In this document: positions 2,361-63,718 of the stretch, in pieces
Numbering within the stretch: position 1 is the stretch's first letter
How the letters are laid out: each line of letters starts with the position of its first letter
Origin: Sulfuricurvum kujiense DSM 16994
GTDB lineage: Bacteria > Campylobacterota > Campylobacteria > Campylobacterales > Sulfurimonadaceae
Direction: 5' to 3'
Assembly: GCF_000183725.1 (NCBI RefSeq)
Contig: NC_014762.1
Coordinates: 806,001-870,000, forward strand
DNA: 64,000 nucleotides
Position numbers and translations under genes: made by a program
The notes under the pieces: model-generated
Database searches by the model: none
Seen by the model: the letters and a program-made list of their open reading frames with translations, nothing else
Told to the model about the DNA's origin: nothing

Positions 2361-5525
<3,165 letters not shown>

Positions 5526-13303: not shown

Positions 13304-13403
13304 CAGCACGGTTCACTGTGCGTGAGCTTTCTGCTGAAGACGGAGTGCCCTTCGGGTGAAACACAGCGTTAGCGTAGCTAATCGGGATTGTATTCCGATA
13401 GCG
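13304..13403 (+). ncRNA. Three-copy structured RNA element, copy A
   Basis: A candidate cis-acting RNA in the leader of the Dabb-domain gene. First hairpin: GCACGG-TTCA-CTGTGC (13306-13321). Middle: a GTG/CAC stem (13345-13347 with 13362-13364) enclosing CCCTTCGGG. Then the invariant strand GTTAGCGTAG (13368-13377). The last hairpin is 13377-13402 (GCTA, bulged A, TCGGGAT, loop TGT, ATTCCGATAGC). Copies B and C share the same order of parts with compensatory base changes. This copy has a longer middle section than the others. It is followed by an A-rich run and AAGGAG, so it lies just before the ribosome binding site. Not recognised as a known family. Confidence 0.55.
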
Positions 13404-13434
13404 TTAAAAAAAATAAAAAGATAAGGAGATAGAG

Positions 13435-13725
13435 ATGTTAGTACATATTGTAATGTTTCAGTTTAAAGATGAGAATAAAGAGGCCAATATGGCGCGCGTC
13501 AAAGAGATGCTCGAAGCGCTGCCTTCAAAAATCAATACGCTCCATTCGATGGAAGTGGGGATTGATATCAGCCGAAGCGAACGCTCATTCGATATGGCTT
13601 TGGTCTCACAGTTTGAGGAACAGGCCGCATTGGATGTTTATGCGATCCATCCGGCACATTTGGAAGTGGTGAGTGTGATTAAAGAGGTTACGCTCCTTTC
13701 CAAAGTCGTTGATTATATACAATAA
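13435..13725 (+). CDS. Dabb-domain (stress-responsive A/B barrel) protein
   Basis: A 96-residue protein of the Dabb family, dimeric alpha/beta barrels first noted as stress-induced in plants and bacteria. The opening LVHIVMFQFKDEN with the His typical of the family, a central MEVGIDISRSERSFDMALVSQF and the YAIHPAHLEVVSVIK region fit well. No catalytic function is established for most bacterial members. The gene has AAGGAG before its ATG and a leader containing copy A of the three-copy RNA element. The next gene starts 11 bases downstream. Confidence 0.85.
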   Translation: MLVHIVMFQFKDENKEANMARVKEMLEALPSKINTLHSMEVGIDISRSERSFDMALVSQFEEQAALDVYAIHPAHLEVVSVIKEVTLLSKVVDYIQ

Positions 13726-43844: not shown

Positions 43845-44653
43845 AAGAGCTTCACGAAGAGATTACACTCCGCTTGAACGGAGTTGTTGAATCTCCGCGC
43901 CGTGAAGCGGAACTTCTGCTGATGGCCTATCTGCAAAAAGACCAGCTCTATTTTATTACCCATCAAGATGACTTTATCGATGATAATGATCCGAGATTGT
44001 TTGAGTGGATCGAAAAGCGCAGCCGTAATGTCCCTCTCGAATACCTGACAAACCGTGTCAGTTTCTACAGCCGTGAATTTTACATCGATGAGGGGGCATT
44101 GATCCCCCGACCCGAAACCGAACATTTGGTTGATGAGGTGTTGTCACGGGTACCCGCAGATGATGTAATTACTATCGTCGAAGTTGGCATAGGGAGCGGC
44201 ATTATTTCGATCTTGCTGGCACTTCATCTTCCCCAAGCCCGTTTAATCGCCGTCGATATCTCGCCCAAAGCGTTAGCCGTCGCACGGCGCAACATCGAGG
44301 CGTTCGGTCTCAGTGATCGGATTGAACTGCGCGAAGGGGATCTGCTCTCGTGCATCGATGAAAAAATCGATCTGTTGGTCTCCAATCCCCCCTACATCGC
44401 TCATGATGCACCGTTGGAATCGAATCTCAGCTATGAGCCTCAAAATGCACTTTTCGGTGGTGACGTGGGTGATGAGATTATTCAGCGTTTGCTGGATGAA
44501 GTCTACAAACGGCGTATCCCGATGTTTGCATGTGAGATGGGTTACGATCAGCGGATCAAAGTGCAGGAATATCTAAAATCTTTTGCGGTACAATCTTTGG
44601 ATTTTTATACCGATTACGCCTCGTTTGATCGGGGATTTATTTTAAAAATTTAA
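43829..44653 (+). CDS. prmC: Peptide chain release factor N5-glutamine methyltransferase
   Basis: PrmC (HemK) methylates the Gln of the GGQ motif in release factors RF1 and RF2. It has an N-terminal helical domain (about residues 1-75) and a class I methyltransferase fold with EVGIGSGIISILLAL. The active motif NPPY is in LLVSNPPYIAHDAP, near residue 190. IPRPETEHLV is a further family mark. At 274 residues the length is normal. Confidence 0.95.
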   Translation: MSKRLKELHEEITLRLNGVVESPRREAELLLMAYLQKDQLYFITHQDDFIDDNDPRLFEWIEKRSRNVPLEYLTNRVSFYSREFYIDEGALIPRPETEHLVDEVLSRVPADDVITIVEVGIGSGIISILLALHLPQARLIAVDISPKALAVARRNIEAFGLSDRIELREGDLLSCIDEKIDLLVSNPPYIAHDAPLESNLSYEPQNALFGGDVGDEIIQRLLDEVYKRRIPMFACEMGYDQRIKVQEYLKSFAVQSLDFYTDYASFDRGFILKI

Positions 44654-44662
44654 GGGATCAAA

Positions 44663-44741
44663 GAGCGCAAAAGTGCGCGCGGGCACTCTGCCGAAGAGAA
44701 CCTAGTGTTAGCGTAGCTTAGGGGATTTTATTCCCTGAGCG
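44663..44741 (+). ncRNA. Three-copy structured RNA element, copy B
   Basis: Candidate leader RNA of the DUF4149-mlaF transcript. First hairpin GCGCA-AAAG-TGCGC (44665-44678). Middle stem CACT...AGTG around CTGCCGAAGAG. Invariant strand GTTAGCGTAG (44707-44716). The last hairpin is an 11-bp stem, GCTTAGGGGAT-TTT-ATTCCCTGAGC (44716-44740). Compared with copies A and C, the pairs at positions 5 and 6 of this stem are flipped (A-T and G-C in place of T-A and C-G), which keeps the pairing. It ends about 16 bases before the start codon region. Confidence 0.6.
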
Positions 44742-44756
44742 TATTAAAGGAACAAA

Positions 44757-62228: not shown

Positions 62229-63614
62229 ATGGAAAAGATGTGGTCCGGACGTTTCACACAAGATGCGTCAACCCTTTTGGAAAAATTTAATGCCTCGATC
62301 ATGTTTGATCAAAAACTTTACCGTGAAGATATCGAAGGTTCCATCGCCCATGCAAAAATGTTGGCGCATCAAGGAATTTTGACCGATGAAGAGTGTTCTT
62401 TGATCGAATCGGGGATGGCACAGGTGCTCAGTGAAATCGAATCGGGGTCGTTTGAGTGGAAAATCGGAGATGAAGATCTCCATATGGCGATTGAGAAGCG
62501 TCTCACCGCTATCATCGGTGAAGCGGGCAAAAAACTCCATACGGCGCGCAGCCGCAACGATCAGGTTGCACTCGATTTTCGCCGTTTCGTGCTTCGTAAA
62601 AATCGCGAAATCACGGGGCAGATTAAAGCACTGATGGGTGTTATCGTTGATATCGCCCGTGATCATACGACTACCGTGCTTCCGGGGATGACCCATTTGC
62701 AGCACGCACAGCCGATTAATTTCGCCTTTCATCTACTGGCATACGCTTCGATGTTCAAACGCGATTGCGAACGTTTTGAGAGCTCTGCACATCGTAATAA
62801 CATCTCTCCGATCGGATGTGCCGCTTTGGCGGGAACACCGCACAATATCAACCGTGAAATGACGGCCCAGTCGCTCGGTTTTGATTCGGTCAGCATAAAT
62901 TGTCTCGATACGGTCAGCGATCGCGATTTTGCGTTAGAAATTTTGTTTAACATTTCGACCTTGATGATGCACATCTCCCGTTTGGCCGAAGAGATTATTT
63001 TGTGGTCGAGCTATGAATTTCGTTTCGTGGAACTCTCCGATGAGTATTCGACCGGAAGCTCTATCATGCCGCAAAAGAAAAACCCCGATGTCCCTGAATT
63101 GCTTCGCGGTAAAACGGGACGGGTTTTTGGAAATCTGATGGGATTGCTGACGGTTATGAAAGGGTTGCCTCTGGCGTACAACAAAGATACCCAAGAGGAT
63201 AAAGAGGGGGTATTTGACAGCGTTGAAACGGCTGAAATCTCTCTTGAAATTCTACGTGAAGCTCTCAAGACGATGACGATCAAACCTCAGAATATGGCGC
63301 GAGCGTGCAAACTCGGACATCTGTCGGCAACCGATTTGGCCGATTACTTGGTCGAACATTGCGGCGTTCCGTTTCGCGAAGCGCACCATATCACCGGACG
63401 TGCGGTCGCCCGCGCCGAAGTATTGGGGATTGATCTAAGCGATATCGCGTATACGGAACTGCATGCGATTGATGAGCGAATCAAAGAGGATGTTATGCCG
63501 TTTTTGGCAATTGAGCATTCGATGAACGCCCGTGTATCTCAGGGTGGGACTGCGGAAGTTCGTACTTTGGAACAGATTATCTATTTTGACCATTATTTAA
63601 AAGATATAAAATAA
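62229..63614 (+). CDS. argH: Argininosuccinate lyase
   Basis: ArgH splits argininosuccinate to arginine and fumarate. The opening [24 protein letters not shown] and [19 protein letters not shown] (signature of the fumarase/aspartase superfamily) identify it. [16 protein letters not shown] and [17 protein letters not shown] hold catalytic residues. Length 461 is normal. It is a single gene with its own promoter region upstream. Confidence 0.98.
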
Positions 63615-63694
63615 AGTGCGGTTTACTGCACTTGAGCACTCTGCTAAAGAGAACCGAGTGTTAACGTAGTCATCGGGATTCTATTCCGAGGGCG
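63615..63694 (+). ncRNA. Three-copy structured RNA element, copy C
   Basis: Candidate leader RNA of the OsmC-type gene. First hairpin AGTGCGG-TTTA-CTGCACT (63615-63632). Middle stem CACTC...GAGTG around TGCTAAAGAG. Strand GTTAACGTAG (63660-63669). The last hairpin is GTCATCGGGAT-TCT-ATTCCGAGGGC (63669-63693), with 10 of 11 pairs. In the first hairpin, copy A has GCACGG/CTGTGC where C has GTGCGG/CTGCAC: both strands changed together. It ends about 18 bases before the ribosome binding site. Confidence 0.6.
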
Positions 63695-63718
63695 TTTTAA
63701 AATTTAAAAGGATGTAAA

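Follow-up and report, generated by a model that had tools for sequence, protein, structure and literature searches.

The three structured copies A, B and C in the window (the whole 64-kb stretch of DNA analysed) likely belong to a composite, REP-like, non-autonomous mobile repeat. The element is about 80–90 bp long and asymmetric, is inserted between genes, and has unusually long target duplications of variable length. We read it as mobile because copies are numerous, dispersed and found in both orientations, some form tandem or inverted pairs, orthologous sites are empty in relatives, and direct repeats flank the best-preserved copies. Against this reading, the search for a mobilising enzyme gave no significant copy close to any of about 50 Y1 transposase genes, many of the copies are old, and a conserved position beside plsX/rpmF could reflect a host function too. 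The element family is new to Rfam and to the searched literature, and its GTAG-hairpin 3′ module is of known REP type.

Window copies and folded structure

The preliminary description claimed three copies with a common order of parts and double changes in the final stem. The copies, the order and the double changes were all confirmed in the window, with the structured cores at the following positions:

63616–63695, + strand: copy C, structured core from H1 to GCGT, between argH and osmC
63616–63631, + strand: copy C, 5′ hairpin H1 (GTGCGG-TTTA-CTGCAC), the sequence of which varies between copies
63633–63652, + strand: copy C, TGRGC box, then P3 hairpin (CTCT-GCTAA-AGAG); the loop in the family is GCYGA
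63658–63669, + strand: copy C, near-invariant strand GNGTTAN′CGTAG, in which N covaries with N′
63669–63693, + strand: copy C, H4 palindrome directly 3′ of GTAG (REP-like 3′ module)
44663–44742, + strand: copy B, structured core, in the prmC-DUF4149 spacer
13306–13404, + strand: copy A, structured core flanked by genes for a glycerol-3-phosphate dehydrogenase and a Dabb protein, with an additional hairpin in the P3 loop

The motif GTTARCGTAG was found without mismatch at only three sites in the window, which are copies A, B and C. When ATTCC was required 6–14 nt after the motif, the whole genome gave 4 matches versus 0 for the reversed control pattern, and the 41 Sulfuricurvum genomes gave approximately 100 versus 5. 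An extra hairpin module (GTGCCC..GGGTG or similar) was observed within the P3 or H4 loop at window positions 13338–13360 and at loci L075, L077, L108 and L112.

The covariation analysis was performed on 118 aligned copies. The named structure paired in 93.9% of cells, and pairing fell to about 42% when the partners were slid by one column. Fourteen of the 17 pairs were altered on both sides, giving 333 cells with double changes versus 89 ± 13 in shuffles. The column pairs with the strongest covariation by mutual information (31–41, 65–78, 30–42, 50–55, 26–36, 62–81, 61–82, 63–80, 33–39 and 66–77) were Watson-Crick. The H1 hairpin was present in 112 of 132 copies despite its variable sequence, versus 37 of 132 after shuffling. 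In nearly all of 116 distinct copies, a stem follows GTAG or a variant differing by one base, and the pairs of this stem were kept in 96–99% of cells. The conserved unit is 80–90 nt, with three further structured parts upstream of the 3′ palindrome. Neither a long-range covarying pair nor complementarity between the ends was found in the element, the 5′ end being H1 and the 3′ end GCGT plus A/T. The covariation decisively supports local hairpins, and the excess of double changes over the shuffles backs the earlier proposal that selection has acted on a folded strand, as opposed to recent copying.

The pair R26–Y36, which joins TGRGC with GCYGA, was 97.3% paired together with G27–C35 and C28–G34, with 43 double changes versus 17. 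N50 and N55 covary inside GNGTTAN′C. Since the RGC/GCY pairing shares geometry with P3 and competes with it, they probably represent either alternative folds or a strained pseudoknot. The middle stem (TGRG/NNCA) previously drawn for the element did not hold up: two of its four pairs fail in about one quarter of the sequences, and it is absent from the covarying column pairs.

Family size, empty sites and target duplications

A covariance model was built from 26 Sulfuricurvum copies. In the genome that contains the window (the home genome), the model gave 41 matches at E ≤ 1e-3, on both strands. Inspection by eye, with weaker and degenerate matches included, gave about 30 copies of the window type and about 16 of a sister type. 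The element was present in 40 of the 41 genomes of the genus Sulfuricurvum. In the Campylobacterota sample, matches occurred in 50 of 298 genomes and 11 of 58 genera, all listed under one order. The model search that had been suggested as a check thus carried the family far beyond three copies, with decisive covariation. The suspicion that no known RNA family was involved was also correct, as Rfam gave no match for the element at the gathering or a permissive threshold. No description of the element was found in the literature searched.

The sister repeat type has another 5′ half (GCCTC..GAGGCAAGCTTTAGTGCCWTAGCGGCTAGCGTAG) but shares the GTAG-hairpin 3′ module. Examples are located at 1063315, 13143 and 2178789 of the home genome (G000:C4; L076, L078 and L079). 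Between the element and the start codons of dnaK, rplL, iscU-like and other genes, relatives have a second conserved stretch, AGGGAA..TTCCCT followed by AAATTTATRAAATAAATTAAAGGA (L203, L204, L212, L213, L216, L217 and L219).

Tandem arrays of the element with a period of 88–92 bp were found in relatives at L226 and L215, and inverted pairs at L230 and L210. Genome G202 has the pair at L230 (1440–1587) at four identical places in the 16S-23S spacer. The pair at L210 (1406–1596) is located within a 23S rRNA gene in G289, at the position of a 17-nt loop in a relative. This loop is probably helix 45, and the inverted pair is perhaps an intervening sequence. Ten pattern matches were obtained on viral contigs, of which two were inspected and resemble coding sequence, and the others score low with the model. 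They were therefore attributed to chance, and viral spread of the element was rejected.

Empty orthologous sites were found for all three window copies. The argH-osmC site is occupied in the home genome only and empty in all 28 other readable genomes, where the two genes overlap or lie at most a few tens of bases apart. At the prmC-DUF4149 site, 26 of 30 genomes lack the element. The four genomes that carry it (the window copy and L296, L305 and L310 in relatives) do not group as sisters on the prmC tree. G035 is occupied there and its close sister G038 is empty. With four non-sister species occupied and their sisters empty, this pattern may reflect repeated insertion, repeated loss, or short-tract recombination. 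Compared with the relative G002, the net insertions were 105 bp for copy B, 130 bp for copy A (about 20 extra bases), and 100 bp for a copy at 799752. At site C, a net insertion of 108 bp is accompanied by a target duplication of 21–23 bp. Many further empty sites were seen against G002. Of the options named in the preliminary description, a structured repeat family is the one borne out by the copy number, the two orientations and the empty sites.

The target duplications of the window copies are as follows:

63595–63615, + strand: site C, left target duplication, ATTTAAAAGATATAAAATAAA
63702–63724, + strand: site C, right target duplication, ATTTAAAAGGATGTAAAATGAAA, which includes the osmC start
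44650–44662, + strand: site B, probable left target duplication, TTAAGGGATCAAA
44744–44756, + strand: site B, probable right target duplication, TTAAAGGAACAAA
13273–13299, + strand: site A, left target duplication, TTTAAAAGATTTGATAGAGAGGTAGTA
13414–13443, + strand: site A, right target duplication, TAAAAAGATAAGGAGATAGAGATGTTAGTA

Flanking direct repeats were also found at L224 (30 bp, two mismatches), at L200 (17 bp, perfect), and in G002 at L326:10661 (21 bp), where the corresponding site of the home genome is empty. The left and right flanks reached a similarity score of at least 26 in 7 of 160 copies (4.4%), versus 0.2% in cross-paired controls. Three of these seven pairs come from tandem or near-tandem repeats, which leaves about four independent sites, together with the empty-site comparisons, as evidence. 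A recognisable duplication is now missing from about 95% of flank pairs. In 19 comparisons with G002, about six showed an overlap of at least 12 bp, and the rest were eroded or negative. We read the flanking repeats as a putative target duplication of variable length, approximately 17–30 bp at the best-preserved sites, with most copies too old to retain it.

We propose that a trans-acting enzyme would recognise the folded single strand through the GTAG-hairpin and the conserved 5′ part. Insertion would take place at staggered nicks of variable spacing, and fill-in would create the duplication. In gene-dense operons, surviving insertions would be those at gene junctions, because the duplication leaves the stop codon upstream and the ribosome binding site downstream intact; copies A–C may be such cases. 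Once placed, a copy would part overlapping or adjacent genes and add hairpins to the mRNA. As the insertions part formerly overlapping genes, they may alter operon coupling. Any effect of an inserted copy on expression is probably a by-product.

Candidate mobilisers and gene context

The element may be a genuine GTAG-REP that is mobilised on single-stranded DNA by a RAYT (HUH tyrosine transposase), either still resident or resident in the past, although we think this unlikely. RAYT is the accepted partner of GTAG REP sequences, in which GTAG lies immediately 5′ of the palindrome and which are intergenic, dispersed, and present as single, tandem or inverted units (PMC3733652). Such repeats are also reported from epsilonproteobacteria (Sulfurovum) (Di Nocera 2013, PMC3733652). 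The element shares this arrangement and dispersal, and Y1 proteins are common in these genomes. The search of Y1 loci covered about 50 Y1 transposase genes in part of the genome range of the element. No significant match to the covariance model was found in 47 Y1 loci and a 12-kb Y1 region of the home genome, the best score being 13.9 bits at L084. A genuine RAYT exists in the genus (101.8 bits versus the NCBIfam cut-off of 80). The RAYT genes above the cut-off are flanked, as read by eye, by another palindromic repeat, TCGTTCCCACTC..GAGTGGGAATGCATAC, with its inverse downstream (L094, L095, L097 and L104–L106). The Y1 genes of the home genome do not reach the RAYT cut-off and are located next to GGTGTCAGGCACC hairpins. 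Three of them were observed among five such hairpins at 3972–7725 of L037, two being nearly identical at the N-terminus. The target duplications of 17–30 bp also argue against RAYT, as target duplication is not known for IS200/IS605-type transposition.

We see a rather small chance that the element is an interspersed one spreading in the form of a folded single strand, whether of RNA or of DNA, via an enzyme so far unlinked to any repeat, with variable SINE-like target duplications of 17–30 bp. If true, this would be a new insertion mechanism for small bacterial repeats.

The gene context of the copies was compared. Among the 49 matches in the home genome, some of them weak, both neighbours were sense in 18 and antisense in 20; 10 were mixed and 1 had a single neighbour called. 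In a wider set of 157 copies, which are not independent, 77 were sense/sense, 49 antisense/antisense and 31 mixed. The copies occupy gene spacers in either orientation and usually adjoin a stop codon, whichever side it is on; in many cases, it is the stop codon of a convergent gene. Copies also occur in rRNA operons. The neighbour genes are unrelated and many are housekeeping, so the listing of downstream genes did not bear out a shared gene class. When 323 neighbour proteins were clustered, the only shared groups were orthologues of housekeeping type, and no common mobiliser-like gene emerged. Some positions are conserved across species, such as those beside plsX/rpmF in about ten species. 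The placement before a ribosome binding site described earlier is true of the three window copies and does not extend to the family, in which orientation is random.

A folded repeat with a host role, such as an mRNA stabiliser, an RNase III site or a nucleoid-protein site, spread mainly by recombination, would explain why stems are compensated at one orthologous position in about ten species. It would also fit site B, where occupation of four non-sister species with empty sisters is consistent with short-tract transfer. The random orientation, the fast turnover between close species and the decayed copies make this explanation quite improbable.

A SINE-like element could be inserted by reverse transcription of its RNA, either target-primed or in RNA-templated repair of staggered breaks. 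It would be expected to look much like the present one, which is asymmetric and without terminal inverted repeats, has target duplications of varying length and a constant 3′ end, lacks H1 in about 15% of copies, and includes G-U pairs in its covariation. RVT_1 reverse transcriptase was absent from the home genome and from 24 others of the 35 searched, including some with at least 14 copies, and we regard this route as very unlikely.

A cis-acting leader RNA (riboswitch, attenuator or protein-binding site) controlling the downstream gene, a reading favoured by the covarying structure, the three window copies shortly upstream of start codons and some positions conserved between species, is hardly credible because orientation is random, with antisense as frequent as sense and many copies between convergent genes, orthologues of the unrelated downstream genes mostly occur without the element, and rRNA operons also carry copies.

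The reading as a mobile repeat is of wider relevance. The spread of small intergenic repeats such as REPs is an open question in the field. In free-living bacteria, this family supplies insertions for which the empty site is known and the target duplication can still be read, and its more than 100 covarying copies define the features needed for recognition. A further lesson is that covariation across intergenic copies does not have to imply a regulatory leader RNA, because half of the copies are antisense to their neighbours.

Comparison with known systems

The comparison with integron attC sites, in which the core boxes RYYYAAC and GTTRRRY lie in one long hairpin, was prompted by GTTARC and by the position after stop codons. 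Inspection of the boxes by eye showed that the last bases of GTTARC depart from GTTRRRY and gave no 5′ core to match; the copies are not clustered either. Eukaryotic SINEs, as an analogy only, share with the element an asymmetric structured unit, variable target duplications and a constant 3′ end. They differ in that no partner reverse transcriptase was found for the element, and movement at the DNA level is equally possible.

BOX, RUP, ERIC and other small intergenic repeats or MITEs are likewise short, non-coding, structured and modular, and occur in either orientation. Those families have terminal inverted repeats and TA or fixed-length target duplications. Unlike them, the element has no terminal inverted repeats, and its target-site duplication, with matching empty sites at the best-preserved sites, is 17–30 bp and not fixed in length.

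The GTAG-hairpin of the element resembles the substrate of TnpA-REP, the RAYT of REPtrons, whereas other repeats flank those resident RAYT and Y1 genes that were inspected, and no REPtron was found. The element also differs from GTAG REPs in its long target duplications and in its size. A REP unit is a palindrome of 20–50 nt; here, the palindrome is only the 3′ third of a unit of 80–90 nt with a conserved 5′ part (H1, TGRGC-P3 and GNGTTAN′C), and the fourth base of GTAG is itself paired. Like the GTAG-tagged REPs (E. coli REP/BIME and Stenotrophomonas SMAG), the element carries GTAG or a close variant right before a palindrome with a stem of 6–13 bp and compensating changes, and its many dispersed intergenic copies occur as singles, tandem units and inverted units.
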